From NCBI RefSeq assembly GCF_005930475.1, contig NZ_SJEW01000010.1, forward strand, positions 1-64,000: a DNA stretch of 64,000 nucleotides, in the 5' to 3' direction. Shown one piece after another: positions 18,036 through 35,396 of the stretch (position 1 is its first letter; the number at the start of each line of letters is the position of its first letter). A model generated the notes under the pieces. The model searched no databases. It saw only the letters and a program-made list of their open reading frames with translations, and had not been told where the DNA came from. The stretch comes from Modestobacter altitudinis. Its GTDB lineage: Bacteria; Actinomycetota; Actinomycetes; Mycobacteriales; Geodermatophilaceae. Made by a program: the position numbers and the translations under genes.

Positions 18036-18046
18036 GGATTACCCCC

Positions 18047-18052
18047 ATTATA
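18047..18052 (-). promoter_or_regulatory. -10 element (TATAAT) of the R-M operon, with palindrome upstream
   Basis: Read on the minus strand, TATAAT ends 12 bases before the hsdM ATG, so the transcript would start about 5 nt before the codon (nearly leaderless). No good -35 is present at 17-18 bp. An ATTGCAAT palindrome at 18057-18064 lies just upstream and could bind an activator or repressor. A consensus -10 is unusual in this GC-rich DNA. Confidence 0.5.
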
Positions 18053-18777: not shown

Positions 18778-21700
18778 GTGATGACGCTGCACAAGCTCAC
18801 GGCGGGCGACGGATACACGTATCTGACCCGTCAGGTAGCCGCGCACGACGCCACGGAGCGCGGGCTGGGGGGCCTCGGCGACTACTACAGCGAGAAGGGC
18901 GAAGCTCCCGGCGTCTGGCTGGGGCGCGGCCTTGCCGGTGTGACGGACTTTCCGGTCGGTGAGCAGGTCACCCAGGCGCAGATGGTCGCGCTGTTCGGCA
19001 AGGGACGTCACCCCAACGCCGAGGCGATCCAGCACGCGGCACGGCTGGCCGGCAAGGATCCACAGCAGGTCGACAGGGCCAGCCAGCTGGGCGCGCCCTA
19101 CCGTGTCTTCGACCAGGGCAACGAGTTCCGGCGTCGCTGCGCCGAAGGGTTCCGCGATTACAACGTCGCCCACGACCTGGACGCCGTCACCCCGGTTCCG
19201 GAGGCGGACCGCGCCCGGATCCGCACCGCGCTCGCACGAGCGATGTTCGTCGAGAAGTACGGTCGCCCACCGGCCGACGCCCGAGAGCTGTCGGGTCACC
19301 TGGCGCGGATCTCCCGTCAGGCCACGACGGCCGTCGCCGGCTACGACCTGACCTTCAGCCCGGTCAAGAGCGTCTCGACACTGTGGGCCATCGCCCCGCC
19401 GGAGGTTGCTGCCGTCATCGAACAAGCGCACACGGATGCCATCGCCAACACGCTCGCATGGCTGGAGGACCGCGCGACTTACACGCGGACCGGCCGCAAC
19501 GGGATAGCCCAGGTCGAGGTTCGTGGGCTGATCGCGGCGGCGTTCACCCATCGCGACTCGCGAGCGGGCGACCCGGATCTGCACACCCATGTCGCGATCA
19601 GCAACAAGGTGCAGACGCTCGACGGCCGGTGGCTGGCGCTGGACGGGCGCCTGATCTACCGGAACAAGGTCGCCGCCTCCGAGCGGTACAACACCCGGCT
19701 TGAGGCGCTGCTCGTCGACCGTCTCGGCGTCGCCTTCACCAACCGCCCCAGCACCCAGCCGGGCAAGCGCCCCGTGCGCGAGATCGTCGGCGTGGACGGC
19801 GACCTGCCCGGCTTCTGGTCATCGCGCCGCACGGCAATCGACGCCCGACGGGCGCTGCTGTCGGCTCAGTTCCAAGCCGACCACGGCCGGCCGCCGACAA
19901 CGACGGAGGCGCTGGCACTGGCGCAGCGGGCCAACCTGGAGACTCGACGGGCCAAGCACGAGCCGCGCTCCTACGCCCAACAGCGGTCCAGCTGGCGGCG
20001 AGAGGCGCTGACGGTGCTGGGCGGAGAGCACCGACTGCAGAGCTATCTGGACGGCGTGCTCCGTCGGCGCTCTGGCCAGGGCTGGGTCCGGCGAGCGACT
20101 GACGCCTGGGTGGCCGAGACTGCCGCGAGTCTGGTGCCAGTGGTGGCCAGCACCCGCGCTATGTGGCAGGAGAGCCACGTTCGGGCTGAGGCCGAACGGC
20201 GGACCCGCGCCGCCGGAATACGGCTGGCTGATACTGACCGCGCGGTCGACGCGATCGTCACCGCGGCACTGTCACCCCCACTGTCTATCCGATTGGGCAG
20301 CCAGGAGGCGATTGGCGAACCGGCCGCGCTACGCCGCTCCGACGGCACTTCGATGTACACCGTTGCCGGCTCGGCGTTGTACACCTCAAGCGCGGTTCTC
20401 ACCGCTGAACGAGCCGTCCTAGCGGCGGCCGAACAGCGCGACGCCCGTGTCACCTCGGCCGCGTCGGTCGACATGGCACTGCTCGAGTCGGTGGCCAATG
20501 GGGTGACTCTCAACCCCGGTCAGGCGGAGCTGGTCCGCGAGCTGGCCACCTCGGGGGCCCGGGTGCAGCTCGCGCTGGCACCAGCCGGCACGGGGAAGAC
20601 CACAGCACTGCGAACTCTGGCCGCAGCGTGGCGGCATGGAGGCGGCACCGTCATCGGCCTCGCCCCGTCTGCGGCGGCAAGCGCAATGCTGCGCGAGCAG
20701 GTCGGCCCCGACACCGACACCCTCGCCAAGCTGGTCCACGCCATGGGCACCGGCGTCGACGTCCCGGCCTGGTTTTCCTCGATCGGCCCAAACACCTTGG
20801 TCGTCGTCGACGAAGCCGGCATGGCAGGTACCGGTGACCTGGCCCGGGTGATCGAGTTCGTCACCGCCGCGGGTGGGTCGGTTCGGCTGATCGGCGACGA
20901 CCAACAGCTGGCCGCCATCGGCGCTGGCGGGGTGCTGCGAGACCTCGCTGCCAGCCAGGGCGCGGTGACCCTGACGCAGGTTGTTCGCTTCACCGACCCG
21001 GACACCGGCGCCCCTAACCACGCCGAGGGTGCGGCGTCGCTGGCGCTGCGCGACGGCGACCCAGCGGCCCTGGCCCACTACGTCGACCACGGCCGGGTGC
21101 ACGTCGGCGACCTGGCCACGGTCACCGAGGACGCCTACACCGCCTGGGCGACCGACCAGGTCGCCGGCCGCGACGCCATCATGCTGGCGCCCACCCGCGA
21201 GCTGGTCGCCGAACTCAACGACCGAGCCCGCCGCGAGCGCCTGGCCCAACGGACCGAGCCGATCGGCGCTGACGTCCCGTTGGCCGACTCGTCGCGTGCC
21301 TCCGCCGGGGATGCGGTGATCACCCGCCGCAACGAGCGCACCCTCCCCGTCGGCGCGACAGACTGGGTGAAGAACGGCGACCGATGGACCATCGCCGCCG
21401 TCCACGAGTCCGGCGCCCTCGATGTGATCCACCGTCGGACCGGCCGGCACGTCACCCTCCCGGCCGACTACGTCCAAGCGCACGTCACCCTCGGCTACGC
21501 CACCACCGTGCACGGCGCCCAAGGCGTCACCGCGGACACCTCCTACGCCATCGCCACCGGCTCCGAGTCCCGCCAGCTGCTCTACGTGGCCCTGACCCGC
21601 GGCCGGCACGCCAACCACGTCTTCCTCCCCATCGCCGGGGATGGCGATCCGCACAGTGTGATCACCCGCGATGCGCTGCTGCCGCCCACTGCTGTCGACG

Positions 21701-24330
21701 TACTCGCCCGCGTCTTGGCCCGCGACGACGCACCGACCTCGGCCACGAGCACGCTCCGCGAGCTGGCCGATCCTGCTGTCCAGCTGCATGAGGTCGCCGA
21801 CCAGTACCACCACGCCCTCACCACCGCGGCAGAACAACGGCTGGGAGCCGAGGGCCTGGCCGCCATCGACTCGGCCGCCGAGGCCGCGGCACACGGAGTG
21901 ACCACGCAGGATTCCTATCCCGTGCTGCGCGCGCACCTGGCGCTGTGCGCTGTCACCGGTAGCGACCCGGTCGACGTACTGCGCCGGGCACTGGCGGTCT
22001 GGCGCGGTCTGGACGACGCGCGCGACGTCGCCGCGGTCCTGGACTGGCGCATCGACCCCACCGGGCATCGCTCGACCGGTGCGGGACCGCTGCCGTGGTT
22101 GCCCGCCGTCCCCGAGACGCTGCGGACCGATGCCGAGTGGGGCGACTACCTCACCGACCGCGCCGACCACGTCACTGCCCTCGCCGCCGCCGTCGTCGCG
22201 CGCTCGCGCACCTGGACACCGGCCAGCGCACCGGCTTGGGCCCGCCCGACGCTCGACCATGACGCCGCTCTGGTCGCCGACCTCGCCGTCTGGCGCGCCG
22301 CTCACGGCGTTGACGACGGCGACCGCCGCCCCACCGGACCCCCGCTGCCGGCGGCCGCCGAAGCCCGCGTCCAAGGCGGGCTCAACGCCCGCGCCGACCG
22401 ACTGCTCGGGGACCCGGGCACGGTCACTGCGCGGTGGGCGCCGCTGGCCGAGAGGATCGACCCACGTATCACCGCCGACCCCTACTGGCCGGTCCTGGCC
22501 GAGCGACTGACTACCGCCGAACGCGCGGGCATCGACATCCCCGCGCTCGTTCGCGCCAGCACCGAGCGCGCGCTCCCCGACGAGCAGCCGGCGGCCGCGC
22601 TGTGGTGGCGGCTGACCCGGCACCTCTCCCCCGCCGCGATGGCCGCCGACGCCTCCTCCGCACGGACGGTGCGCCCGGACTGGACTCTCGACCTGGCAGC
22701 CACCCTCGGGCGCGCAGCCGCCGACCGGATGATCGCTGATCCGAGCTGGCCCGTGCTGGCCGCCGCCGTCGACCAGGGTCGGGATCATGGCTGGCGGCCA
22801 GACCAGCTGCTGTCCACTGCGTACGACCTGCTGCGCGCTGGTCACCCTGACGACGAGCCGTTGCGCCCAGACGAGCTGACCACGGCTCTGGCCTGGCGAA
22901 TGGGCCTGCTCACCGAGCCGACATCCGCGGGGGGCAGCGACGCGGCTCTTCCGCCGGATGACCTGAACCAGTACCCGGCGCTGAACGCTGCACCCGACCG
23001 GGACTGGCTGGCCGGCCTCACGGAACCCGACGACACCGAGCCCGCACCCGAACCGCTCGGCTGCGACCCGGTGAGTCTTCAGCACGCCGAGCGCCCCGAC
23101 CAGGGCGACACGTCCCGTTTCGACCGGAACCGGCTCCTCGAGCTCAACCAGGAGGCCGCTGCCTTCTTCGCCGCCCGGTATCGGGACTCCTGGGCGGCGG
23201 CCTACCTCTCCAGGCGGGTGGGCACCGACCTCAGCGACGACGAACGCTTCACCCTGGGCTACGCCCCCGCTGGCTGGACCACCTTGACCGACCATCTACG
23301 CGACCTGGGCGCCTCCGAGGCCGAGATCGTCGCCGCCGGCCTCGGGAGTCGGGCCTCCACCGGCCGGATCATCGACCGCTTCCGCGACCGGATCGTCTTC
23401 GCCATCCGCGACGGCGATGAGATCCACGGCTGGATCGGCCGCCGGAACCCGGCCCTCGACGATGGCAGGGACCACGCTGCTCCGAAGTACCTCAACACTG
23501 CGGAGACCGACCTCTTCACCAAGGGCCAGGAGCTGTACGGGCTCACCGAGGGAGCAGCTGCGCTGGCCACCGGCGCGACGCCGGTCATCGTCGAAGGCCC
23601 CCTCGACGCGTTGGCGGTCACCCTCGCCAGCGATGGCGACTACGTCGGCATCGCGCCCATGGGCGTGGCGTTCACCGACGCACAGGCCGACCGACTCCGA
23701 GCCTTCATCGGTGCGGAACGCCCCGGCGTCATCGTCGCCACGGACGCCGACCGCGCCGGGCAGCTCGCCGCCCAGTGCATCTTCGGGCAGCTCACCGCCC
23801 GAGGCGACGACCCGCGTCACGTCGCCGTCCCGACCGGAAAGGACCCCGCCGAGCTGCTGGAGACGGCCGGCCCCGAGGTCCTACGGCAGGCCCTCGCCAA
23901 CTCCCGAAGTCTCGCCAGCGCGCTCATCGACAGCCGCATAGCCGTCTACGCGGAGCGGCTGCACACCGTCGAAGGCCGGGTACTCGCCGCACGTCGCGCC
24001 GCCCCGATCATCGCGGCGCTTCCGCCGACCAGTTGGCCAACGCACCTGGTGTCGGTTGTGGTGCGCACCGGCATCGCACCAGAAATTGCGCTCGACGAGG
24101 TCCTGGACGCCGCCCGGCGCCCCAATGAGGTTGCCCGCCCGCGTCGCAAGGTGTTGCCCTCTGACCAACCGCTCTCAGGGAACGTCAACATAGATTCGAC
24201 GGTGAACGCCTCCGTGAGGGCAATGGTTTTGGCGGACGCAGGACAGGGGACGCTTGCCAACAGCGTTCAACAAGCTCGGCGGGCTGCCGCCGGAGCTGGT
24301 TCCCGCGCAGGGCAGAGACTGCGACCCTGA
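18778..24330 (+). CDS. MobF/TrwC-type conjugative relaxase fused to helicase and TOPRIM primase-like domain
   Basis: 1850 residues. The N-terminal relaxase (about 1-310) has the nicking tyrosines in GYTYLTRQ (Y13, Y15), a second pair in DYYSEKGE (36-37) and the three metal-binding histidines H258, H269, H271 in HRDSRAGDPDLHTH. A RecD-like helicase follows with Walker A PAGTGKT (602-608) and Walker B DE (678-679). After a long linker, residues about 1490-1800 resemble a DnaG-type catalytic core: CHC2-like N-part, then TOPRIM with VEGPLDAL (E1606) and ATDADRAG (D1656, D1658). The protein would nick oriT, unwind the plasmid and perhaps prime the recipient strand. The start may be GTG 18778 or ATG 18781. 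It is divergent from R-M and opposite to the conjugation operon. Confidence 0.9.
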   Translation: MMTLHKLTAGDGYTYLTRQVAAHDATERGLGGLGDYYSEKGEAPGVWLGRGLAGVTDFPVGEQVTQAQMVALFGKGRHPNAEAIQHAARLAGKDPQQVDRASQLGAPYRVFDQGNEFRRRCAEGFRDYNVAHDLDAVTPVPEADRARIRTALARAMFVEKYGRPPADARELSGHLARISRQATTAVAGYDLTFSPVKSVSTLWAIAPPEVAAVIEQAHTDAIANTLAWLEDRATYTRTGRNGIAQVEVRGLIAAAFTHRDSRAGDPDLHTHVAISNKVQTLDGRWLALDGRLIYRNKVAASERYNTRLEALLVDRLGVAFTNRPSTQPGKRPVREIVGVDGDLPGFWSSRRTAIDARRALLSAQFQADHGRPPTTTEALALAQRANLETRRAKHEPRSYAQQRSSWRREALTVLGGEHRLQSYLDGVLRRRSGQGWVRRATDAWVAETAASLVPVVASTRAMWQESHVRAEAERRTRAAGIRLADTDRAVDAIVTAALSPPLSIRLGSQEAIGEPAALRRSDGTSMYTVAGSALYTSSAVLTAERAVLAAAEQRDARVTSAASVDMALLESVANGVTLNPGQAELVRELATSGARVQLALAPAGTGKTTALRTLAAAWRHGGGTVIGLAPSAAASAMLREQVGPDTDTLAKLVHAMGTGVDVPAWFSSIGPNTLVVVDEAGMAGTGDLARVIEFVTAAGGSVRLIGDDQQLAAIGAGGVLRDLAASQGAVTLTQVVRFTDPDTGAPNHAEGAASLALRDGDPAALAHYVDHGRVHVGDLATVTEDAYTAWATDQVAGRDAIMLAPTRELVAELNDRARRERLAQRTEPIGADVPLADSSRASAGDAVITRRNERTLPVGATDWVKNGDRWTIAAVHESGALDVIHRRTGRHVTLPADYVQAHVTLGYATTVHGAQGVTADTSYAIATGSESRQLLYVALTRGRHANHVFLPIAGDGDPHSVITRDALLPPTAVDVLARVLARDDAPTSATSTLRELADPAVQLHEVADQYHHALTTAAEQRLGAEGLAAIDSAAEAAAHGVTTQDSYPVLRAHLALCAVTGSDPVDVLRRALAVWRGLDDARDVAAVLDWRIDPTGHRSTGAGPLPWLPAVPETLRTDAEWGDYLTDRADHVTALAAAVVARSRTWTPASAPAWARPTLDHDAALVADLAVWRAAHGVDDGDRRPTGPPLPAAAEARVQGGLNARADRLLGDPGTVTARWAPLAERIDPRITADPYWPVLAERLTTAERAGIDIPALVRASTERALPDEQPAAALWWRLTRHLSPAAMAADASSARTVRPDWTLDLAATLGRAAADRMIADPSWPVLAAAVDQGRDHGWRPDQLLSTAYDLLRAGHPDDEPLRPDELTTALAWRMGLLTEPTSAGGSDAALPPDDLNQYPALNAAPDRDWLAGLTEPDDTEPAPEPLGCDPVSLQHAERPDQGDTSRFDRNRLLELNQEAAAFFAARYRDSWAAAYLSRRVGTDLSDDERFTLGYAPAGWTTLTDHLRDLGASEAEIVAAGLGSRASTGRIIDRFRDRIVFAIRDGDEIHGWIGRRNPALDDGRDHAAPKYLNTAETDLFTKGQELYGLTEGAAALATGATPVIVEGPLDALAVTLASDGDYVGIAPMGVAFTDAQADRLRAFIGAERPGVIVATDADRAGQLAAQCIFGQLTARGDDPRHVAVPTGKDPAELLETAGPEVLRQALANSRSLASALIDSRIAVYAERLHTVEGRVLAARRAAPIIAALPPTSWPTHLVSVVVRTGIAPEIALDEVLDAARRPNEVARPRRKVLPSDQPLSGNVNIDSTVNASVRAMVLADAGQGTLANSVQQARRAAAGAGSRAGQRLRP

Positions 24331-24663
24331 GCGAGACGCTGGACACGATGGCCTGTGGGTCGAGCCCTGCCCCTCAAGGCGGAGGTAGCACCCGCCGTCA
24401 CCGCGGCCTAAACACCCCACCCGACGAGTCAACTGAAGTAGGGCAGTCCTTCGTCTCGTTTGGCAACTCGCGACGACGGACTGGCAGTTTCTAGACTGAC
24501 CACAATCCGGCACGCGCGCATCGGGCTCGGGGCGGTTGCATGACCGCGACTCAGGGGTCATCCTTCTGGAATCGGCTCGTCTACGGGGGTCGCATACTCG
24601 TTTACAGGCGCGCCTCATCGGGGACATGCGCTTGCGCTTCGAAACTCAGCCGAGGAAAACACA
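24331..24663. other. spacer after the relaxase
   Basis: 333 bases without a convincing gene. GC content falls towards 24663, marking the boundary to the lower-GC defence gene. No clear terminator or repeat is seen. Confidence 0.35.
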
Positions 24664-25785
24664 GTGATGCGAAATCAAGCTGCGCGAACTCGCAAGGCTC
24701 GCAAGGCTCGCTCTCGTAACGCGCGTGTGCAACGGTCAGTTGTACTCTTACGGTCATTCAAAGATGACACGCCGAGTTGGACTCTAGCGCTCAACCTTTC
24801 AGCACTTCTGGCCGACGTTAAACTCACCCTTGTCGGATCAGAGGCCGAGGGCCAAGCGTTGCGCGACGCGTGGTTTCGAACTAGGCAAACCAAAGAGTCG
24901 TTCGAGCAGCACATTGAGTTTATCACCGCAGATGACAACTCATGGCGTAGGCACGTGGTAGAGGCTCTGGGAAAGGCGGACTGTGTCATCCTTCATCTCG
25001 CGCCTAAACGCAAGACATGGCCAATATTGAGGGTCCCACACATGCGTAAGGAAGGCTTCGGCGACTTCTTCTCCGCTCCACTTATGGATCTCATTACAGG
25101 ACCCAGCGTGCTCCATGAGATCGCCTACCTGGAACGGCTAAACTTATTACCGCGCACAATCCTCTGGATTCATCGCTCTCATGCTGGCTACTTGCTCAGG
25201 ATCATGGCGCACGCGCTTCCCCATGGCGGGGGCTGGTTTAAGAGGGTTGACGCCACGCACGTTCGTGCGCTTACTCCCAGACTGTCCGCACGCAACCGGC
25301 AACTCGGCAAGTTGTGCGGGAGGCATGGCATGGTCCTGCATCGCTCACGCGACGTAAAGACGTATCCGCGGCGATCCAAAAGTTTACTGGAGCTTCGCGA
25401 CCAGGTTCTGCTGGTCCTCTCCAAAGAGAGACGCATCAAGAGTCACTTCCAGCCTACAACCAATGCCCTCGTGGGGAAATCCCCACTTCCCCGACGCCTC
25501 CCGCCTGATGGCGAACTGAAGGTCATACAGTTCGTCAACGTCGAGGATCTGATGCGGATCCCGCCCTTTCGCATTAGCGACGTCGATCCGGCTACGGTCT
25601 TGAAATCATTGTCGGCCGACTCGATTGCGCTTGGATGCCCGTCTTGCCAATGCCCTATCAAACAGATCTTCTTTTATACCCGAGATCGAGAGCATTCCAT
25701 CGTTAGGGGGCGATGTCAGGAATGTGAAGGGTACATGACACTAGAAGATGATGGCACATTATTTCTCGCCACGTATCTGCTGTAG
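24664..25785 (+). CDS. TIR/Rossmann-like protein with C-terminal zinc ribbon, putative defence effector
   Basis: 373 residues, GTG at 24664 or ATG at 24667. After a basic tail (1-24), residues 25-170 look like a TIR/nucleotide-binding type fold: strand RSVVLLRSFKDD, strand KLTLVGS, the pair SWRRHVVEALGKADCVILHL (93-112), then GPSVLHEIAYLE, where E152 is at the place of a TIR-type acidic residue. The C-terminus has CPSC (325-328) and CQEC (351-354), a zinc ribbon. The gene is clearly less GC-rich than its neighbours and uses rarer codons, so it was acquired separately. It converges on the TIR-caspase-SLOG operon. I do not recognise the exact family, and the function is inferred only from fold pattern and context. 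Confidence 0.6.
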   Translation: MMRNQAARTRKARKARSRNARVQRSVVLLRSFKDDTPSWTLALNLSALLADVKLTLVGSEAEGQALRDAWFRTRQTKESFEQHIEFITADDNSWRRHVVEALGKADCVILHLAPKRKTWPILRVPHMRKEGFGDFFSAPLMDLITGPSVLHEIAYLERLNLLPRTILWIHRSHAGYLLRIMAHALPHGGGWFKRVDATHVRALTPRLSARNRQLGKLCGRHGMVLHRSRDVKTYPRRSKSLLELRDQVLLVLSKERRIKSHFQPTTNALVGKSPLPRRLPPDGELKVIQFVNVEDLMRIPPFRISDVDPATVLKSLSADSIALGCPSCQCPIKQIFFYTRDREHSIVRGRCQECEGYMTLEDDGTLFLATYLL

Positions 25786-25885
25786 GCGACCACCCGTCTA
25801 TGGCCGACTGCCCCGCCGAGGAACGCCACCCGCGCCACTCCGAATGCGGCCACGATTGGCATCTCACCTGCATGTGGCGGGCGAT

Positions 25886-26368
25886 TTAGCGCCGACTGGC
25901 CCCTTCTGGCCAGACGACTCGAATGTCTCGTTCCCGTGCGCGAGCGTAGGCGACGACGTCCCCAGTCCCGCCTTTTCCGGCCGCTGGCTTTCCGTCCCAA
26001 ACCGCAACGAGGATCTCGCAGCGGTCGACAACCTCGTGACCGGCGGCCAAGTAGGCGTCTTCGTCGGGTGTTGAGAAGGGCAGGATTGTGGTAGCGCCCG
26101 CAAGGGCTCGCAGGGCGGTATAGGCGTCCCGCGACGAGCTGGAGTCGAAGCTTTGCTCGTAGCTCTCGCTAGGGATGATGGCGTGCAGAAGGCCGCCGGC
26201 TGCAAGGACTGCGAAGCCGAAGATTTGGTCGGCGCCCTCCGCGAGGCTTGTGAGGCCGGTCAAGTCATCTTCTCCCTCGACAGCGAGGATGTCAGCGATG
26301 GCGACCGCGACGTTGCGTCGGGTGGGCGATGTCAGGCCTTGGTGACCGGTACACCCAATTCGCGTCAC
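25886..26368 (-). CDS. SLOG-domain protein (nucleotide-signal sensor), third gene of the TIR-caspase operon
   Basis: 160 residues, essentially one SLOG (LOG/DprA-like Rossmann) domain: strand RIGCTGHQ (3-10), SLAEGADQI (41-49), and the phosphate-binding type loop DGKPAAGKGGT (125-135) after ILVAVW. SLOG domains bind nucleotide-derived signals. In type I Thoeris one is fused to SIR2 in ThsA and senses the TIR product. Here it is a separate protein. Its GTG start at 26368 overlaps the caspase stop (GTGA), so it is made with the protease. It could bind the TIR product, buffer it, or supply a second ligand. Confidence 0.7.
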   Translation of the reverse strand: MTRIGCTGHQGLTSPTRRNVAVAIADILAVEGEDDLTGLTSLAEGADQIFGFAVLAAGGLLHAIIPSESYEQSFDSSSSRDAYTALRALAGATTILPFSTPDEDAYLAAGHEVVDRCEILVAVWDGKPAAGKGGTGDVVAYARARERDIRVVWPEGASRR

Positions 26369-27366
26369 AGCAGACCTTTATCGGCCAGTCGCCAAAAATA
26401 CCGCCCAAGCGGCGTCAGGTAGACGTGACCGCTTTCCATGGCCACCCAGTAGTGATCTCGCCGCTCGTCTGTGGTGACCAAGTTGGCGTTGCGCAGTCGT
26501 CCGACGTAGTCAAACTCCTGCTGCTCGACACTACCGGGGTTGCCCCGCTGTAGCGGTCGACCTTCACCTTCATGGGCGGGGCTCAGCTGCAGGCGGTGAT
26601 CCTCTGACGGGAAGTGATCGGGAAGTCTGCGCAGCAGCTCACTGTCCAGCCATGGTGGTCCAATTCGCAATAGCACAGGTTCAGTAAGATAGGTCTTCAA
26701 GACAGGGCGCTGCTCCCAGGCGTCAAATGCCGGGCTGACGTAGCCATACAAGCTGAGCGCAGTCACGTTACCGCGGTGGTCAGTCGCGCCGCCCTCCAGG
26801 CCGTCTAGCAGTACCCGGGTGAACGCGCCATGCCCCCCAGCCTCTTGAGAGGGTTCGGTTCCGCGACTGGCAGCCATGATGGTGACATTCTCGCGCACGA
26901 CGGCCTTGTTGAGGCGGAAGTTCTCGGCCACTCCTGCTGCCTGAAGTCCCGGAGTGTTCCCCGTGTCACCGCTGAAGCAGCAGTCCAAGAGGATGGTGAC
27001 GCTGCGAGCAGGCGAGTCATTGGCCAGTGTGACCAAGTCGTTCATCGAGACGCCAAGGCTGTTTTGCGCGGCGTCCTGAGTGACGAGGTCTGCACCCCAC
27101 AAGGTCTGCGCTCCGTGCCCCGCGAAGAAGAACAGCAGGTCGGCGTCACGGGCATTGGCGAAGAGGGCCGCTAGGGCGCCGCGCAGCCTGTGCCGCGTGA
27201 TGGTCGCCGAACCCGCTTTACCGGTAATCAGTTCAGTGCGCCAGTTGGGCGACCCGTCGGCGTGCCGAGCGAGAGGATGGCTCAACGCGGTGGCGTCGGC
27301 GACGCAACCGGTCAGCGATCCGACGGTCGGGTAGTGATCAATTCCAACAAGCAGCGCGCGCTTCAC
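26365..27366 (-). CDS. caspase-like cysteine protease (peptidase C14) of a TIR operon
   Basis: 333 residues from GTG 27366, which overlaps the TIR stop (GTGA). Residues 1-190 are a C14 caspase p20 domain: RALLVGIDHYP (3-13), catalytic His in FAGHGA (H84), and catalytic Cys in LLDCCFSGD (C130, with C129 beside it). The C-terminal part (about 280-333) reads like a winged helix ending in LTPLGRYFW. It could be a regulatory or substrate domain. A longer frame exists upstream but covers the TIR gene. Given the neighbours, this is the likely executioner of a TIR-signalled defence, cutting host proteins when the signal binds. The target is unknown. Confidence 0.85.
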   Translation of the reverse strand: MKRALLVGIDHYPTVGSLTGCVADATALSHPLARHADGSPNWRTELITGKAGSATITRHRLRGALAALFANARDADLLFFFAGHGAQTLWGADLVTQDAAQNSLGVSMNDLVTLANDSPARSVTILLDCCFSGDTGNTPGLQAAGVAENFRLNKAVVRENVTIMAASRGTEPSQEAGGHGAFTRVLLDGLEGGATDHRGNVTALSLYGYVSPAFDAWEQRPVLKTYLTEPVLLRIGPPWLDSELLRRLPDHFPSEDHRLQLSPAHEGEGRPLQRGNPGSVEQQEFDYVGRLRNANLVTTDERRDHYWVAMESGHVYLTPLGRYFWRLADKGLL

Positions 27367-27776
27367 GCGTTCTTGCCCTCCCCCATCATCTGATCGACGG
27401 CGGCGGCGATAAGGTTCCACCTCCACGCGATGGTGCGATTACGCTGTAGGCCTCCCGGCAGCGCGCTGCTGCTGCTGGCCCCGTCGACATAGACACCGAA
27501 GACGGGAACGTCGAGGTCCTTCGCCATCTCGATTTCCTTGACCACTCCGGTTGCCGTGGCCATGGAGGGTCCGACCAGGACGATGCACATGTTAGTGCTT
27601 GCCATCTTCATCTTAATCAACCGCTCCCACTCCGCTTGGGGTAGGGCCGTCTTGCTCGACCAGTCATGGATAGTGAAGGGCGTCGGCGAGTCACTCTTCG
27701 CCTGGCCGACGAAAAGAATCTTTGAGAGCTCGTTATGATCAAAGTCAAAACTGACAAAAGCGCGTGGGTCGGACAT
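27363..27776 (-). CDS. TIR-like (ThsB/MTH538-type) protein, first gene of a TIR-caspase-SLOG operon
   Basis: 137 residues. RAFVSFDFDHN (5-15), a long loop, then NMCIVLVGPSMATATG (62-77), KEIEMAKDLDVPVFGVYVDG (80-99). This matches the TIR-like fold of Thoeris ThsB, with E81 the candidate catalytic Glu. Such proteins sense phage and convert NAD to a cyclic ADP-ribose isomer. The ATG at 27776 has GGAGGAG closely upstream. A possible -35 TTGACG lies further up but the -10 is poor. The gene is not fused to a receptor domain, as expected for ThsB. Confidence 0.8.
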   Translation of the reverse strand: MSDPRAFVSFDFDHNELSKILFVGQAKSDSPTPFTIHDWSSKTALPQAEWERLIKMKMASTNMCIVLVGPSMATATGVVKEIEMAKDLDVPVFGVYVDGASSSSALPGGLQRNRTIAWRWNLIAAAVDQMMGEGKNA

Positions 27777-28338
27777 GAACTCCTCCTCGGTACAGGCAGC
27801 GGCTTGGTACCACGTCAAGCACGGGTACAAACACGCAGCGTTACGAGGCGCCCGACCCGAGCGGTGCCGGGTTTGGCCCCTACTAGCCTGCTCGCGCCGC
27901 TGGCTCGCGACCATCACCAACATCAAGCCGCCGCTTCGTTGCGTCCTTCGCGGTGGGCCGCCTTGCCTGAAGTGCCGTTGGACCGTGGTGATCCACAGGA
28001 TGACGCGGACAGCATTCGACCCGCAGGCTGACGCAGAGAACGGATGGGCAGTCCCGCAGCAATCAAGGGGGCACCCGAGGACCCCGCGCCATACACCTCT
28101 GCGGGCTTACCTGCACCAGTGTGTCGTGAGGCATCTGCCTCACACTGTCGTGAAGCCGTGGCGGCTGTCCCCAAGGCCGCCCTCAGGGCGATGGTCGCCT
28201 TGACGCGCGGTCCCAGCCGCGGCGTCCTTGGCGTCACCGCGCAGGCCTCGGCCGACTGCTGCGCCTGAGTCGCGCCCGAGGCGCGTCATCCGGCTCTCTG
28301 CCGCATGCCCGCCGGCAAAGCGGCGGTGTCAGCGGTCG
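27777..28338. other. intergenic region upstream of the TIR operon
   Basis: About 560 bases. It must contain the TIR operon promoter at its lower end. The rest has only Ala/Arg/Ser-rich frames on both strands and no recognised gene or repeat. It separates the defence operon from the end of the conjugation operon. Confidence 0.35.
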
Positions 28339-28821
28339 TCAGCTAGGACGAGACCCGAGGAAGGCCGAATAGCGGCTTTCGGCGGGCCAGGTCTGGTGTC
28401 GACCGGTGCGGCAGGTGCTCTCCCCGAGGCGTTCGACCATGCGGTCGCAGAACATCGGGAAGGCGTAGCGGTTCCACTCTTCGATCAACTCAGGACCGGC
28501 TGAGTTCTCCGCCTGCCAGCGCAGCACCGCCAGGACGGGCAGCTCCCGGGCGATGTGGGGATGGTGGGGCCAGCAGGCCGGGATCATTTGCGCGGGTCGC
28601 CAGGCGAACTCGTGATTCACCCAGGCGGCGACGCCGTGACACCAGGTCCACACCGCCGCGCTGAGCTCGCCACTGCATCCGGCCGGTTCCCACGGGCGCT
28701 CCAGGTCCGAGACGAGATCGGCTCGGGCCGGCCGCGCGGAGTCCCGTCGCCGAACGTCCGCAAGGAGTTCGAGCGCCCCGAGGACGGGGAGCGGCGGCGG
28801 CGGAAACGGCAGGACGTTCAC
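28339..28821 (-). CDS. conserved hypothetical protein, last gene of conjugation operon
   Basis: 160 residues, GTG start overlapping the VirD4 gene stop (GTGA). Trp-rich soluble protein (TWCHGVAAWVNHEFAWRP, WQAENSAGPELIEEWNRY) without membrane segments or known catalytic motif. Its position at the end of the coupled operon suggests a cytoplasmic accessory of DNA transfer. Not recognised further. Confidence 0.7.
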   Translation of the reverse strand: MNVLPFPPPPLPVLGALELLADVRRRDSARPARADLVSDLERPWEPAGCSGELSAAVWTWCHGVAAWVNHEFAWRPAQMIPACWPHHPHIARELPVLAVLRWQAENSAGPELIEEWNRYAFPMFCDRMVERLGESTCRTGRHQTWPAESRYSAFLGSRPS

Positions 28822-30356
28822 CAGGAGTACTCATCGGGCAACTGCGCGAACGGCGAACCGGAAGCGTGGTCGTCACGGCCCGGGGTGAGTCGGTGATCGC
28901 GGGCGTAGGCCAGCGCCGCGGCGGTGCGCTCGGATACGTCGACCACCGCGGTGCGAGCCCGGGTGACGTGCGCGCGGGCGGCGTCCAGCTCGGCCTTCAA
29001 CCGCTGCCCGTCCTTGCCGTCGAGGCAGCGCTGCAGCCTGGCGATGATGGGCGGCGCGGTGCCCGCGACCACGAGGGCGTGCCGCTCGGGCACGCGACGG
29101 ATGTCGCCGGGGCGCAGCACCCGAACGTCCTCGCCGGAGCGGGACGTCCCGATTCCGCCGGGGCCGTCGGTGACGGTCTGCCGGCTGATCCGCACGTCGT
29201 CCAGGAGGTCGGACAGCTCCCGGTAGAAGTGGACGTCCTTGCCGCCGCCGAAGACGACAAGGGTGTTGGTGAGCCCGAACAATGAGCGGGCCTCGTCCTC
29301 GCCATAAGAGACGACCATCTGCTTCCAGGTCTGCGCGGCGTAGATGAACGACAAGCCGAGCGCGCGTTCGTTGGCCATCCGTACCCGCAGTGTGGGCAGC
29401 GGGGTGGTGGAGGGCAGTTCGTCGAGGCAGGCCAGGAAGCAGGGGGTCATCCGCCCGTGCGGTGAGGTGGTGGCGACCTGCAGTGCGGTGTCGAGGACGT
29501 GCTCGGCGACGGCGGTCATCAGCGGCGCTGCGGAGGCGTAGGGGTCGTCGCGGCCGAGGAGGTACACCGTTCCCTGCCGGGTGATCAGGTCGACCAGGTC
29601 GGTCGCCGGCCGTCCAGGCGACGGCACGCAACGGGCGCGGATGTCCGGCTGGAAGAACAGGGCCATGGCCTGCTGAACAGTGGTGACGGTGTTGCCGACG
29701 GTGTCCGGGCTGCCGTGCAGGGCACCGGCCAACAAACCGTCCCAGAAGCGTGCGGCGTGCGGGTGCTGCTGCAGGATCTCGGCCGGTTGCTCGGCGGCGA
29801 CCGGGTTGGCGACCCATTCCAGGACGTGGTCCAGGGTGCGGCCGGTGAGCGCTGCTGCGTGCAGGAAGCCCTGCAGCACCTTGGCGGTCTCGGCGGCGTA
29901 GAACCGCGCTGCGTTGTCCTGCCGGCCGCCGGTGACCGCACCAGAGACCGTGCCGGCCGAGAACGCCTTCGCCCGTCGTTCAGCGATCTGCGGATCGACG
30001 CAGCCAGCGATCGGATCCCACACCAGTTCCGGGATCCCGGGGGCGGCACCGAACGGGTCCAGCACGGCAATCGGGCGTGGCGGGCCGCCGAGGTGACCAG
30101 GCTGCTGACGGCGTCCGGCAGTCAGCAGGAGGTCGTCGACCTTGGTCAGCGTCGCCAGCCCGGCGCCAAGGTGAGCCAGCAACGCCGGGGCCAGCAGGTC
30201 CAGTGTCTTGCCGGACCCCTGCTCGCCGTAGACACCGGTGGTGCGGTCGTACCGGCACCACAGCTCGACACCGCGCGGTCGGGAGGAACGGCCCAGCCGC
30301 CAGCCGACATCGGTGGGCTCGAACCGGGACATGCGCGTTGCTCTCCCCTTCTCCAT
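28818..30356 (-). CDS. VirD4/TraD-type coupling ATPase
   Basis: 512 residues. Walker A GEQGSGKT at 44-51 (counting from the ATG at 30356) and Walker B FLACLDELPS in the middle fit the type IV coupling protein family, which links the relaxase-DNA complex to the secretion channel. Typical motifs GVYGEQGSGKT and FIYAAQTWKQM are present. No N-terminal membrane segment is seen, so it resembles the soluble actinobacterial version. The start overlaps the upstream stop (ATGA). An internal ATG at 30332 with AAGGGGAG upstream is an alternative. Confidence 0.85.
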   Translation of the reverse strand: MEKGRATRMSRFEPTDVGWRLGRSSRPRGVELWCRYDRTTGVYGEQGSGKTLDLLAPALLAHLGAGLATLTKVDDLLLTAGRRQQPGHLGGPPRPIAVLDPFGAAPGIPELVWDPIAGCVDPQIAERRAKAFSAGTVSGAVTGGRQDNAARFYAAETAKVLQGFLHAAALTGRTLDHVLEWVANPVAAEQPAEILQQHPHAARFWDGLLAGALHGSPDTVGNTVTTVQQAMALFFQPDIRARCVPSPGRPATDLVDLITRQGTVYLLGRDDPYASAAPLMTAVAEHVLDTALQVATTSPHGRMTPCFLACLDELPSTTPLPTLRVRMANERALGLSFIYAAQTWKQMVVSYGEDEARSLFGLTNTLVVFGGGKDVHFYRELSDLLDDVRISRQTVTDGPGGIGTSRSGEDVRVLRPGDIRRVPERHALVVAGTAPPIIARLQRCLDGKDGQRLKAELDAARAHVTRARTAVVDVSERTAAALAYARDHRLTPGRDDHASGSPFAQLPDEYSW

Positions 30357-31651
30357 CAGCGTGCCCGGCCCGGGCCGGGCGTCCGTCCGCGGGCCGCCTG
30401 GAGCTGCCGCTGCGTTTCCTGCGTGGCGGCGCTCAGCGCACTCGCTGTCTGCGGCTGATCGAGCAACGCCTGGTTCGCGGCCCACGCCCGGCGCGGGAAG
30501 CCGCCCGTCGTGCGCACGCCACCTTTGGCAGCCTGAGTCGCCACGGCGAGTGACAGCAGCCGGGCGTTGTGCAGGGCACCGGCGACCGGCTGCAGGTCGA
30601 CGGCGTCGGCGCGGACCAGCCCGCCGGGCCGGTAGCCCCTCAAGTAGGCGGCTACCCGCTCGTCCCGCGGCGGGAGGTCGCGCGCGTAGGCCACGAGTGC
30701 TCCGGTGTCTGCCCAGGATCGGACGGAGCGGTAGAGCAGCTGGGTCGCCAGGGTCGGCAGATGCTGGGCCGCCGCTGCGACGACCGCCCGCAGCGGCTCC
30801 GCCCGCAGCGCTGATTCCAGCCCAGGGCGGCTGAGCGATGCGTGCACACGGATGGCCGCGTTCACGGCCGGCGGTACGTGCTGGTGCTGGTGGCGGCTGC
30901 CGTCGTCGTAGGGCCGCAACGCCGCACGCACGGCTCTCCACGCCTCCGCTGCTGTCGCCTGCCTGGCCGGCGACTCGGTGATGGGTCCGAGCCGTTGTGC
31001 GGCGTCGCTGAGCGTCTGGGCGCCGAGCGTGTACGCCAGCACCTCGGCGACCGACGGCGGCTCCGTCGTTCTGGCGGTGGCGTGGAGCAGGACCGCGACC
31101 GCATCCGGCACCACCCGCGCAGGGTCCGCACTCGCCGGAACCGAGGGCCCGGGAATGGGCCGGTCGAGGATCGCGACATGAGCCCGTGACGGGGGCTGCA
31201 GCGCTGCTGTCTGCTGGACCAGCACGGACTGGCGCTCGATCTCGGCGAGCCACTGTGCCGCTGGACCGGCGGGCAGGCCAGGGGCGATCACCTCGGCCAG
31301 CGGCGTGATGGTCTCGGCCACGACGGTGGCGGCAGCCCAGCGGGTGGCAACAGTGGTCTCGTCATGGAGGACGGCGAGGGTGTCGGCGGCGGCGGCCGCG
31401 AGCCTGGTCAGTGTTGACTCAGTTGCCGGAGCACGAACGGCCAGCTGGGTGCAGGCGGCGGCCAGTGCGGCGACCTGCTGCTCACGGCGGTCGCCAGCAG
31501 CTGGCGAGACGCCGTCGCGGCGCAGTTGGGCCAACGCGCGGCCCAGCTGCCCGATCGCGGTGCCTGCGTCGGCGCGGGACCCTGGACTGGAGTCGGTTGT
31601 CCGCGCTGTGTCGGCGAGGGTGTCGAGCAGCTGCCCGAGTGAGGTGGCCAT
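30356..31651 (-). CDS. conjugation-operon hypothetical protein, all-helical
   Basis: 431 residues, Ala/Leu/Arg-rich and predicted helical throughout, with no membrane helix or signal peptide. ATG start overlapping the previous stop (ATGA), and its own stop overlaps the coupling-protein start. A soluble partner of the VirD4-like ATPase is plausible from position. No family is recognised. Confidence 0.7.
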   Translation of the reverse strand: MATSLGQLLDTLADTARTTDSSPGSRADAGTAIGQLGRALAQLRRDGVSPAAGDRREQQVAALAAACTQLAVRAPATESTLTRLAAAAADTLAVLHDETTVATRWAAATVVAETITPLAEVIAPGLPAGPAAQWLAEIERQSVLVQQTAALQPPSRAHVAILDRPIPGPSVPASADPARVVPDAVAVLLHATARTTEPPSVAEVLAYTLGAQTLSDAAQRLGPITESPARQATAAEAWRAVRAALRPYDDGSRHQHQHVPPAVNAAIRVHASLSRPGLESALRAEPLRAVVAAAAQHLPTLATQLLYRSVRSWADTGALVAYARDLPPRDERVAAYLRGYRPGGLVRADAVDLQPVAGALHNARLLSLAVATQAAKGGVRTTGGFPRRAWAANQALLDQPQTASALSAATQETQRQLQAARGRTPGPGRAR

Positions 31652-31962
31652 CAGAGCGCTTCCCGCAGCGCCCGCCGGCCGTGCCGCGCCGCGGCCAGCA
31701 CGTCGGGGTGCGCGAAGTTGTCGGCGTCCAGCCGGCCGAGGATGCGCAGAGCCTGCGTGACGAGCTGTTCAGGGTCGCTGGCGTCGGCGGTCGCGGGCAC
31801 TGGGCCGCTGGGCACACGCAGAGCGGTGAGGGCGGCGAGGCAGTGCAGCTGCGCCGTCGTCCCTGCCTGCTCGTTTCGGGCAGCAGCGGCGAACAGAGCC
31901 GCTGCTTCTGTGCGGGCGGTGGCGAGTTCGCTGCTGTGGCCGCTGTCGGTGGGCAGTGTCAT
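31651..31962 (-). CDS. small helical protein of the conjugation operon
   Basis: 103 residues. AAGGAG eight bases before the ATG at 31962 is one of the few good ribosome sites in the operon and restarts translation after a 142-bp gap. The chain is helical with a conserved-looking DADNFAHPDVLAAARHGRRA tail. Function unknown. ATGA overlap with the next gene. Confidence 0.6.
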   Translation of the reverse strand: MTLPTDSGHSSELATARTEAAALFAAAARNEQAGTTAQLHCLAALTALRVPSGPVPATADASDPEQLVTQALRILGRLDADNFAHPDVLAAARHGRRALREAL

Positions 31963-32104
31963 TGCAGGGCTCCTTCTGGTGGCGGAACAAACGGATTTGC
32001 GTCGGAGAGCGGTCGACGTTGCTTAAGACGGGAGCTGTGCACCGGGCCGGTGAGCGCATCTGTGGATGTCGTCAACACCTGGGGACCGCCCTGTTGACGG
32101 GCGC

Positions 32105-32650
32105 TCATCGACCGGCGCGACGTCGACCGTGGGCGGCCTCCGGGCGATAGCGGTCCGGGCGGATGACCGATCTGGCAGCGCGAAGCTGGCGGATTCCGAG
32201 GGCTTGCTCTGCCTCGTTGCGGCTGGCCATGCCGTTGCCGCGGGGTCGGAACCGGGCGATGCAGATGCCGACGGCGACCGCAGCCGCGAGAAGGGTCGCC
32301 TCGGCCAGTGCGATGCAGGCGTACGTCGGCACGGGTCGGGCGACCCTTCGGAGTTGCTCTGGAGGCAGGCCGCGCCCGGGCTGACCATGCAAGAGCCCGT
32401 CGAGGACCCGGGTGATCGTCTCGGTGCCGTGCGGCCACACCCAGCCACCGCCCCACAGCGCCGAGGCGAGCCCGAGGCCAGCCAGTGCTGCTAGGACGAC
32501 GAGGATCACCGCCGCACCGGTTACGGCGACTGCCAGTTCCCATCCCCGGCTGAGCGGCTGAGGATCACGGCGACGCTGGGACGGCGTAGTCACGCGCAGG
32601 CCCCGGGGTGGTGGTGGCTGTGCATGTTCCTGGTTCGCCTCTCTGTTCAT
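32105..32650 (-). CDS. two-helix membrane protein of the conjugation operon
   Basis: 181 residues from ATG 32650, or 162 from GTG 32593. Two hydrophobic segments (about 40-63 and 110-132) flank an external loop with WPHGTETITRVLDGLL, and a basic C-terminal tail lies in the cytoplasm. Similar proteins sit beside the lytic peptidase in actinobacterial conjugation clusters. The role is unknown, and it may be a channel subunit. Confidence 0.65.
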   Translation of the reverse strand: MNREANQEHAQPPPPRGLRVTTPSQRRRDPQPLSRGWELAVAVTGAAVILVVLAALAGLGLASALWGGGWVWPHGTETITRVLDGLLHGQPGRGLPPEQLRRVARPVPTYACIALAEATLLAAAVAVGICIARFRPRGNGMASRNEAEQALGIRQLRAARSVIRPDRYRPEAAHGRRRAGR

Positions 32651-32718
32651 GCAACGTGTCGGACGGCGACGATCTGGTCCTGCCCGCGGTGGCCTCGGCC
32701 GGCTGGACCGGGACCTGG

Positions 32719-33876
32719 TCAGCCGGCGGTGGTGGCGGCGTGCAGGTCGACCCCGTGGTCGGCCAGCCAAGGCACGGGGTCCACGGGTGCGCCGTCGAGA
32801 CGGACCTCGAAGTGGAGGTGGACGCCGGTGCTGTTGCCGGTGGAGCCCTGGAAGCCGAGCAGCGCACCTGCATTGACCCGCTGGCCCGGAGTGACGGTGT
32901 AGCCCGAGAGATGGGCGTACCGGGTGGTCACCCCGGCGCCGTGGTCGAGTTCGACGAGGTTGCCGTAGCCGGCCAGGTCGAGGTTGCCGTCGCGGTCGCA
33001 GTAGGCGCTGGTGCACGCGGCGGTGAGCACGGTGCCGGCCGCGGCGGCGTACACGGGAGTGTTGCGGGGCCCGGCAAGGTCGGCTCCGGCGTGCTGGCTG
33101 CCCCAGCGAGTCCCGAAGCCGGAAGTGAGGATGCCAGCGGTGGGCCGGGCCCAGGCTCCGTCCGGCACCGGCAGGCCGGGGCAGACACCGTCCAGCGCAC
33201 CGGCCGGGTCAGCAGCCGCAGCCGCAGCTGCGGGCCACAGCATCGCGGTGAGCTGCCGAGCGAGCGGCTCCCAGCGGGTGTAGGCGTCCGCGGAGGCAGA
33301 CACCTGCACGGCCTGCGCGGCTCGGGTCAGCGGGATGGTCTGCCAGTTGGGCACGTCGAGGAGCCGGGAGTAGAAGGCCTCGGCGGCATAGACGGGATCC
33401 ATCAGCTGGCCGACGGTGCCCCAATTCGCGATCCAGCGCTGCTGGAAGGTGTTGACGCTGTCGTGGTCGGAGCCGAGTCCGTCGTGGGGGTAGGTCAGGC
33501 TGGTGGCGGTCACCCCGGCCTGCTCGGTGGTCAGGTCGGGGCTGCTGCCGTCGTTGGCCAGCATCCGCAGCCGCGACTCCTGCCAGGCGGTGGCCAGCGC
33601 CACCGTCGTGGCATACGGCGGTAGGTCGTGCGCGGCTGCGACGTCGGCGATGGTCTGCGCGTGGCCCATCTGGACGGCGTCCAGCGCGATGCCGGCGACG
33701 GTGACTCCGGTCCCGCCGGTCGAGCAGACCGATGATGCGGCTGGCGTACGCGCCGCTGGTCCGGCGAAGACCGCCAGCGGGACCAGCAGCAGGATGAGCG
33801 AGGCAAGCACCGGGATCACGAGGAACGCGGCCAGCCATGGCCACGCCCGGGGCACGCGCTGCGCCGCGCCGGTCAC
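32719..33876 (-). CDS. conjugation cell-wall hydrolase: SLT-like region + M23 peptidase
   Basis: 385 residues. One membrane anchor (13-39), then a lysozyme/transglycosylase-like region with WQESRL (E100) and a hydrophobic repeat. A C-terminal M23 endopeptidase (about 240-370) has the zinc ligands H262/D266 in QHAGADLAG and H355 in HLHFE, plus H322 in RYAHL. It would open the peptidoglycan at the transfer channel. The GTG start at 33876 overlaps the VirB4 gene stop. The M23 set is complete. The transglycosylase assignment is weaker. Confidence 0.85.
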   Translation of the reverse strand: MTGAAQRVPRAWPWLAAFLVIPVLASLILLLVPLAVFAGPAARTPAASSVCSTGGTGVTVAGIALDAVQMGHAQTIADVAAAHDLPPYATTVALATAWQESRLRMLANDGSSPDLTTEQAGVTATSLTYPHDGLGSDHDSVNTFQQRWIANWGTVGQLMDPVYAAEAFYSRLLDVPNWQTIPLTRAAQAVQVSASADAYTRWEPLARQLTAMLWPAAAAAAADPAGALDGVCPGLPVPDGAWARPTAGILTSGFGTRWGSQHAGADLAGPRNTPVYAAAAGTVLTAACTSAYCDRDGNLDLAGYGNLVELDHGAGVTTRYAHLSGYTVTPGQRVNAGALLGFQGSTGNSTGVHLHFEVRLDGAPVDPVPWLADHGVDLHAATTAG

Positions 33877-35396
33877 GCCGGGCCGCCTGTCAGGGCGTCG
33901 TTGGTGTCGGTGAGGGCGACGTCGATCGAGGTGCGGACGGTCTGCACCTTCGCGACGTGGCTGCCGACCAGCCACAGGGCTCGCCCCCTGGCTGCGGCGG
34001 CCCAGTCGGTGACGATGCGCTCGGCCATCGGGTTGAGGCCGAGCAGGTCGGAGAGCTCGTCCCCAATCTGCTCGTCCTGACCGAGCAGCACCTTGGTGGC
34101 GCAGAGATGGAGCAGGTCCTTGGCGATGGCCACCGCCTGGCTGCCAGCGTCGCCGATGGTGAGCATGTCCGACGGCTTGTGTGCCACGACTACCTGGATG
34201 CAGCCGTCGTTGCGGGACAGGCGCAGGTCAGCGTCCAGCGACTTGACCGCCTCCGTGCCCAGTCGCATCTGCTTCCAGCACTCGTCGCGGACGACGATCC
34301 GCATGTCCCCGGGCTCCGCCAGCTGGGTCATCGCCCGGCCCCAGGAGTTGAGGCACGTCAGCGCCACGCCGACGGCTTCGTCGCCGAGCGGGTCCAGCCG
34401 GGACAGGGACAGGGACTGGATCGGTGCGCGCCAGTCCACCGAGACGGTGGTGGGGGCGTCGAACAGGCCGGCCAGGTGCCCGGTGACCAGCGCGCCGAGG
34501 GCGTCACGCAGCGGCCGGGTCTCGTCGAGGAAGTGCTGCCTGGTGGCGTAGCGGCAGGCGTCGACGAGGTCGTCGGTGGGTGCGCGGAGCGCCTGCCACA
34601 CCTGCGGGATGGTGATCTCACGCATGCGGTCGGCACCGTCGGAGTAGCCGGTCAGGTCACGGATGACCTGGCCGACAGCGGTCTCCGCGGTCGGTCCGAA
34701 CGGCACGTGCTGCGACCCGACCAGACCCCGGATGAGCAGCAACCACCGCGCGAACACCATCGCCGCACGGCGTCGTGCCTCGGCGCCGGGCAGCCTGGTC
34801 CAGTCGTTGCCGAGAGGACCGAAGTCCAGCGGGTTGATCCGCGCGGGCAGGCCATGGCCGACCGCGTGCGGCTCGACCTGCAAAGCCCGGCACAGCGGCT
34901 CGTACTCGTCCTTGACGTCCCCGAGCACCAGCGTCCGATAGCCGTAGGCCATCTGACGCAGCGCGAACATCTTGACCGTGCCGGACTTCCCCCTCCCCGG
35001 CGCGCCAAAGAAGATCATGTTCGGGTTGGTGACGCCGGCGACGCCATTGAGCGTCCAGCCGATCGGGTCCGCTGAGAAGGCACCGCCGGAGAGATGGTCG
35101 ACGCCCAGCAGCGCACCGGCGGGCGGCAACCCAGCACCGGCGATCAGCGGCCATATTCCGCCGACCTGCTCGGACGTCATCCGGTAGACGGCAAGCGGTG
35201 CGGGCACCGCCGTCCAGCCCGCCGCTCGACCCGTCCGGCCCCGTCGTCCGACCAGCGAGGTGAAGGGCACGGCGTCTGCCGGGCGGACCGATGCGCTGGG
35301 CGGCATCGGCAGCTGGTGCCCGAAGTCGGAGACCAGCTGGGCTACTCCCCTTCCTTGAGCGATCCGCCGCCGGTGACCGGCGCGCCGGCCGATCAC
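33873..35396 (-). CDS. VirB4-type conjugation ATPase
   Basis: 507 residues from GTG 35396, which overlaps the upstream stop (GTGA). Earlier in-frame codons lie inside the upstream gene. Walker A GAPGRGKS (131-138), Walker B MRIVVRDECWK, and LSLSRLDPLGDEAVG-type body typical of VirB4/TraC motors. It powers assembly of the mating channel. It is shorter than Gram-negative VirB4 because the N-terminal membrane part is carried by the separate SCO6880-like protein next to it. Confidence 0.88.
   Translation of the reverse strand: MIGRRAGHRRRIAQGRGVAQLVSDFGHQLPMPPSASVRPADAVPFTSLVGRRGRTGRAAGWTAVPAPLAVYRMTSEQVGGIWPLIAGAGLPPAGALLGVDHLSGGAFSADPIGWTLNGVAGVTNPNMIFFGAPGRGKSGTVKMFALRQMAYGYRTLVLGDVKDEYEPLCRALQVEPHAVGHGLPARINPLDFGPLGNDWTRLPGAEARRRAAMVFARWLLLIRGLVGSQHVPFGPTAETAVGQVIRDLTGYSDGADRMREITIPQVWQALRAPTDDLVDACRYATRQHFLDETRPLRDALGALVTGHLAGLFDAPTTVSVDWRAPIQSLSLSRLDPLGDEAVGVALTCLNSWGRAMTQLAEPGDMRIVVRDECWKQMRLGTEAVKSLDADLRLSRNDGCIQVVVAHKPSDMLTIGDAGSQAVAIAKDLLHLCATKVLLGQDEQIGDELSDLLGLNPMAERIVTDWAAAARGRALWLVGSHVAKVQTVRTSIDVALTDTNDALTGGPA

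Follow-up and report, generated by a model that had tools for sequence, protein, structure and literature searches.

The DNA analyzed here, referred to as the window, is a stretch of 64,000 nucleotides from Modestobacter altitudinis. Three genes on its minus strand, encoding a TIR protein, a caspase and a SLOG protein in that order, are joined by two four-base GTGA overlaps. The first (27363–27776) encodes a ThsB-type TIR protein of 137 amino acids with a catalytic Glu81. The second (26365–27366) encodes a caspase-like protease of 333 amino acids, counted from the GTG inside the overlap, with His84 and Cys130 and a C-terminal domain at approximately residues 240–333. The third (25886–26368) encodes a stand-alone SLOG protein of 160 amino acids, marked by a signature of Gln10, Glu103 and Gly110 and by a GGTxD loop at Gly133–Asp137. 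The TIR stop meets the caspase start at 27363–27366 and the caspase stop meets the SLOG start at 26365–26368, both on the minus strand, and the letters at the two junctions are GCGTGAAG and CTGTGACG. The ATG of the TIR gene is closely preceded by GAGGAGGAG, a stretch resembling a ribosome site. The original prediction of a three-gene operon with GTGA overlaps holds on direct reading, in its coordinates and at both junctions. Because of these two overlaps, translational coupling of the three genes is likely.

The TIR protein matches the Pfam family PF08937 (ThsB_TIR, E 1.1e-6) and the PADLOC ThsB models, and its Glu81 is kept in 49 of 49 aligned TIRs, in line with its earlier description as ThsB-like with an active-site glutamate at this position. 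The caspase matches PF00656 (E 4e-12). Its fold model (pLDDT 87.7) matches the MALT1 paracaspase with a Z of 23.6 over residues 1–235; the listed fold matches span residues 1–239 at most, with the C-terminal domain outside. The His and Cys are conserved in all 58 caspases of the family, which bears out the proposed H84/C130 protease.

The SLOG protein gave no Pfam, NCBIfam or PADLOC match at E<=1, including no match to the RyR domain (PF02026), and phmmer against PDB sequences gave it no identity. Its fold model, built with 81 sequences, reached a pLDDT of 95.0 and a pTM of 0.91. The best solved fold is YpsA (Z 19.2, 153 residues aligned, rmsd 2.3), with further matches to DprA (Z 14.7), ShosA (14.5), LOG enzymes (11.4) and ThsA (9.3), and a Z of 7.5 against a 3′cADPR-bound SLOG structure. 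As modeled, the third gene product is a SLOG-superfamily protein with a Rossmann-like fold over the whole domain, and the stand-alone SLOG domain that had been proposed is thus found as a separate protein.

Mobile setting of the operon

The operon is flanked on one side by a TrwC-type relaxase-helicase with DnaG-like parts (18778–24330, plus strand) and on the other by a TraG/TraD-type coupling protein (28818–30356, minus strand). Given this position, it is probably cargo of a conjugative element. The G+C content is 58–63% in 24000–28000, against 66–75% in the other 1-kb steps of 18000–34000. A segment spanning 24451–28033 is common to Geodermatophilus nigrescens (L090; blastn, 85% identity) and covers the operon together with a convergent gene; beyond this segment, the 12.5-kb locus of G. 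nigrescens has no more window match at E<=1e-10 (blastn). The convergent gene (24664–25785, plus strand) encodes 373 amino acids without a Pfam, NCBIfam or PADLOC family match. It accompanies the operon in G. nigrescens, and phmmer over loci L031–L185 found no copy besides that one and the window's own. Among the matches listed, a SLOG homologue occurs in none of 10 same-genus genomes. The low G+C, the segment common to the two genera and this absence from the same-genus genomes fit a mobile cassette.

Recurrence of the caspase–SLOG pair

The pairing was followed through 58 caspases, gathered from plasmids, an order survey, a phylum survey and a SLOG search. These were 61 less three distant ones (L107, L110, L118); partial genes and one split gene (L176/L177, genome G671) were not entered. 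The latter is a caspase of the family read as two overlapping frames, split or frameshifted, and followed by a TIR. L001 was omitted as a copy of the window, which is itself entered as L172; L093 and L174 are identical, and L031/L185 and L090/window are near-copies. Taking “beside” to mean within 700 bases of the caspase, a SLOG gene adjoins 36 of the 58. A ThsB-type TIR lies upstream on the same strand in 27 of these, a count that includes the window and some near-copies. Two more (L095, L112) have the TIR on the opposite strand, and seven pairs (L037, L111, L116, L125, L135, L141, L175) have no adjacent ThsB-type TIR. The odd layouts are L135, which is divergent, L141, with a gap of 663 bases, and L035, with SLOG ahead of the TIR. 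The carriers of the pair belong to at least four phyla: Actinomycetota, Pseudomonadota (L031, L033, L035, L185), Bacillota (a Bacillus subtilis plasmid, L089) and Chloroflexota or Thermomicrobiota (L091, L096), the last being metagenome bins whose host is less sure.

Since many pairs came through the SLOG query, two samples chosen without SLOG weigh more. A caspase profile (A1; 19 rows, seven of them SLOG-linked, window included) was run at E<=1e-40 over 396 genomes of the window's phylum, Actinomycetota by inference. It found seven carriers, of which four, counting the window's genome, have SLOG beside the caspase, one has a RyR gene and two have neither. The second sample is a set of 43 plasmid records whose match covers 75% or more of the window's caspase. 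SLOG lies beside the caspase in eight of them (seven downstream, one upstream) and the RyR gene in 19 (18 downstream, one upstream), with both in none. Some of the plasmid records counted are nearly identical to one another (four from Agrobacterium and four of the Rhizobium etli type), the SLOG and RyR tables were matched by hand, and eight plasmid caspase records past 75% coverage and further ones among the 43 were placed by their coordinates.

A search for the conserved three-gene order had been proposed at the outset, and the trio on one strand in 27 loci is its outcome. With the order conserved and both active sites intact, the trio is neither rare elsewhere nor variable at Glu81, and it is not accidental.

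The presence of SLOG also follows the caspase phylogeny. On a tree of 58 rows, the SLOG label requires two changes against a shuffled mean of 17.9, and none of 500 shuffles gave a value as low. The SLOG-linked caspases form one side of a branch, with L035 as the sole outlier; as the SLOG-linked rows came partly from the SLOG search and most of the others from plasmids, sampling could account for part of this signal. The SLOG tree is poorly resolved (157 columns), and on it the caspase-linked SLOGs are not one clade, with 11 changes, four of them forced by starred branches.

Across the 27 three-gene operons, pairwise distances correlate at 0.72 for caspase–SLOG, 0.43 for caspase–TIR and 0.42 for SLOG–TIR, with partial correlations of 0.66, 0.20 and 0.18. 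The bootstrap interval of the gap between caspase–SLOG and caspase–TIR runs from 0.01 to 0.56. Dropping three near-copies changes the two correlations to 0.675 and 0.325, and the 95% interval for their gap, −0.015 to 0.64, then includes zero. On both sets of correlations, the link of SLOG to the caspase is no looser than that of the TIR, and it is probably tighter.

It is highly improbable that SLOG is mere cargo or a neighbor functionally unlinked to the caspase. Most SLOG homologues in the order do lie elsewhere, and a caspase of the family adjoins SLOG at two of the 40 places (out of 55 in the order survey) examined with wider flanks. Against this stand the overlap of the genes, the recurrence of the pairing across phyla and, L035 excepted, its confinement to a single side of the caspase tree. 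The gene neighborhood fits the suggestion that SLOG is a separate partner of the caspase.

The pair is also found apart from its usual TIR. Six of the seven genomes with TIR-less pairs have no ThsB-type TIR at E<=1e-5 (profile A2), one of the six, G639, being 87% complete; the remaining genome, G026, has one elsewhere. A TIR_2 protein adjoins the pair in L116, and L125 has a CATRA-EAD1 protein. Other TIR families may supply a signal to pairs of this kind. As a separate observation, a PLD-helicase touches the start of the pair in L095 (1473–5021) and L112 (380–3931), the two loci with the ThsB-type TIR on the other strand. It was identified as PADLOC PLD_Helicase/PbeA-like in L095, and its homologue in L112 by eye.

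The third-gene slot and other contexts of SLOG

A gene of approximately 91 amino acids adjoins 11 of the 58 caspases (L079–L081, L083, L087, L088, L099, L170, L180, L181, L184) and has a RyR domain match below the Pfam cut-off (E 2.7e-4, 2.2e-3). It comes after the caspase in many of the TIR–caspase operons on plasmids, annotated as “hypothetical protein”, among them L079:3981–4265, L080:3989–4264, L081:3996–4277, L087:3966–4235 and L088:3978–4259. SLOG and the RyR gene are beside the same caspase in none of the 58. In Rhodococcus erythropolis (L099), a TIR–caspase–RyR and a TIR–caspase–SLOG operon lie approximately 1.7 kb apart. The remaining TIR–caspase loci have a second TIR in the third-gene slot, or nothing.

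Relatives of the RyR gene were found in 12 phage records (E<=0.1), for example in Microcystis phage LMM01 (38.7%); the records include MT835687 and NC_008562. The record MT835687 has its own caspase match directly ahead of the RyR homologue. It is possible that these phage homologues act in counter-defense. One SLOG query gave no match at E<=1e-3 in 50,697 phage records, and viral contigs gave one pattern match and no confirmed relative.

LOG enzymes, a branch of the SLOG fold, are hydrolases. This bears on the main rival explanation, that SLOG acts as a sink for the signal or as an off-switch, sequestering or hydrolyzing the TIR product and setting the caspase threshold in parallel to the RyR protein of the same slot. 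That explanation is possible, yet on balance doubtful. The mutual exclusion of RyR and SLOG among the 43 plasmid caspases and the 58 caspases agrees with it, as does the statement of a preprint that phage RyR proteins degrade or sequester 2′cADPR and 3′cADPR (PMC13232231). SLOG and RyR thus both come from folds with members that handle ADP-ribose nucleotides. On the other side, SLOG is retained with the caspase in the six genomes without a detectable ThsB-type TIR, which is not decisive. The lack of a match to the one SLOG query in the phage records, against 12 with RyR relatives, tells weakly in the same direction.

SLOG homologues occur mostly in non-caspase contexts; of the 513 relatives that the search confirmed, the best 80 were retained. 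Q-E-G stands at positions 10, 103 and 110 in 35 of the 36 caspase SLOGs, and Q-Q-G in the remaining one. The same signature is found in none of 49 SLOGs adjoining XRE-TPR or TrkA-RyR genes, in 8 of 45 other SLOGs, and in the SLOG of Novosphingobium (L034). Q-E-G without an adjacent caspase of the family is seen in L102, L107, L108, L110, L113, L118, L120 and L169; some of these have other caspases or TIR-like/STAND genes in the vicinity. XRE-HTH/TPR regulator-like genes adjoin 38 SLOG homologues (L032, L047–L050, L053, L056 and others). A TrkA_N-RyR protein, identified by a Pfam run on L066 only, is beside SLOG in L060, L065, L066, L069, L070, L072, L073, L075, L076, L123 and L128; this would place RyR and SLOG in one putative nucleotide pathway.

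Three SLOGs are tied to membrane proteins. In Novosphingobium, a TIR, an 8xMP membrane protein and SLOG follow in sequence. On a Streptomyces plasmid (L192), SLOG, with I-R-N at the signature positions, adjoins an 8xMP-like gene, with no ThsB-type TIR within the 6.5 kb of that locus. In Caballeronia (L186), SLOG, with R-E-G at these positions, is fused to a DUF4231 region, and an annotated TIR gene comes next. These associations with 8xMP and DUF4231 effectors speak for a sensor or gate coupled to an effector rather than for a pure sink, although two of the three (L192, L186) are without Q-E-G. TIR genes also precede 8xMP-like genes at L034:5417–5989, L079:6115–6579 and L097:4985–5398 (L097 by profile only), a layout that is a separate TIR–membrane-effector arrangement.

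Role of the SLOG protein and relation to known systems

The operon on a mobile element of this soil bacterium is likely an anti-virus system in which an enzyme that makes a signal is combined with a death protease and a separate protein with a nucleotide-binding fold. Our preferred reading, to which a probability of a little under one half (approximately 0.46) is given, is that of a type IV Thoeris variant acting by abortive infection, in which SLOG is the dedicated ligand-binding regulatory partner of the caspase. Going by its family, the TIR would sense the phage and, through Glu81, make an ADP-ribose-type nucleotide from NAD+. SLOG, with its Rossmann-like pocket, would bind this nucleotide or one related to it. 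Bound to the caspase, in a partnership to which the neighborhood, the tree and the co-divergence point, it would then license or gate the protease. The active His84/Cys130 protease would degrade cell proteins and stop phage growth, as in type IV Thoeris. The modeled fold speaks against the SLOG-partner reading, in that the closest solved fold is YpsA rather than ThsA.

The superfamily to which SLOG belongs also includes nucleotide hydrolases, and Asp137 of the GGTxD loop is present in 36 of 36 caspase SLOGs. An enzymatic role, in which SLOG makes or alters the nucleotide signal as a LOG-type phosphoribohydrolase or as a base exchanger with the TIR, could accommodate both points. The catalytic motif of LOG phosphoribohydrolases is PGGxGTxxE. 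By sequence, the loop of the window's protein reads GKGGTGDVV, with GGT and Asp137 but Val138 in place of the Glu at T+3. Moreover, SLOG accompanies the caspase rather than the TIR, and such a role is improbable.

The C-terminal domain of the caspase may bear on how the signal is received. The caspases without SLOG share the two-domain architecture of the SLOG-linked ones, including this domain. With L035, which has the His, set aside, a conserved His at position 305 is present in 22 of the 23 SLOG-linked caspases that fall outside the clade of the window and in 19 of 22 without SLOG, whereas it is missing from all 12 caspases of the window's clade, 10 of which have Asp. Outside that clade, the retained His suggests that a possible ligand site of the caspase itself was not lost. 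The idea that SLOG is a general replacement for a C-terminal ligand site was dropped, as the His is lost in the window's clade only. A further explanation, compatible with either SLOG role, is that the lineage of the window forms a system of its own, with a signal other than that of type IV Thoeris. The missing His argues for it, and the gene order, the TIR family and the caspase family, all as in type IV Thoeris, argue against it; it is unlikely.

N7-cADPR is reported to activate the type IV Thoeris caspase, and the part of that source available mentions no SLOG (PMC12847820). Together with the equal architecture of the non-SLOG caspases, this indicates that such caspases can, in general, probably do without a SLOG sensor. 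A broader proposal regards SLOG and the caspase as a stand-alone, signal-gated protease separable from ThsB. The SLOG would be a sensor in trans, once fused, serving caspase, 8xMP and DUF4231 effectors, with triggers from different upstream modules, and in TIR–caspase immunity RyR and SLOG would be nucleotide handlers able to replace each other. This proposal is tentative and rather doubtful.

Under the preferred reading of SLOG as regulatory partner, or under the sink, the recurrent small gene in the slot, SLOG or RyR and thus of a nucleotide-handling fold, would offer a genetic and biochemical handle on how bacterial caspases are restrained and released. Loss of the partner gene would tell a sensor or gate, with which immunity fails, from a sink or inhibitor, with which the cell kills itself. 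As a pairing of protease and partner across several phyla, it is a candidate new control of bacterial cell suicide.

The TIR–caspase–SLOG operon is unnamed in the literature searched by titles and abstract openings, a search that did not cover the original type IV Thoeris paper and carries no claim of absence from print. YpsA/DUF1273 and DprA are the best fold matches across nearly the whole SLOG protein. They differ from it in sequence (identity of approximately 10–16%) and in gene context, which in the window is an immune-type operon. The TIR–caspase–RyR operons have the same TIR–caspase core and third-gene slot, but a RyR domain takes the place of SLOG, and none of the 58 loci has the two together.

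In type I Thoeris (ThsB with a SIR2-SLOG ThsA), a TIR is likewise combined with a SLOG fold, which there is the cADPR sensor; one study describes a 3′cADPR-selective pocket in the ThsA SLOG domain (PMC11204291). The window differs in having a separate SLOG, closer in fold to YpsA and DprA than to ThsA, and an effector that is a protease and not a SIR2. Should the protease be gated in trans by SLOG, the latter would be the separate-protein counterpart of the type I SIR2-SLOG switch.

The nearest relative is type IV Thoeris, the TIR–caspase system of Rousset et al. 2025 as cited in PMC12847820. In both, a ThsB-type TIR with a catalytic Glu lies directly upstream of a caspase-like protease with His and Cys, and the original designation of the locus as Thoeris-like fits, with both active sites intact. 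The window's caspase is homologous along its whole length, including the C-terminal domain, to the caspases of two-gene TIR–caspase plasmid operons, which we infer to be the characterized type IV Thoeris. The window differs by its third gene, SLOG, and by a caspase clade without the C-terminal His. Type IV Thoeris itself is already known, as are its caspase and N7-cADPR (PMC12847820), and the SLOG partner, as judged from sequence, would be the new part.
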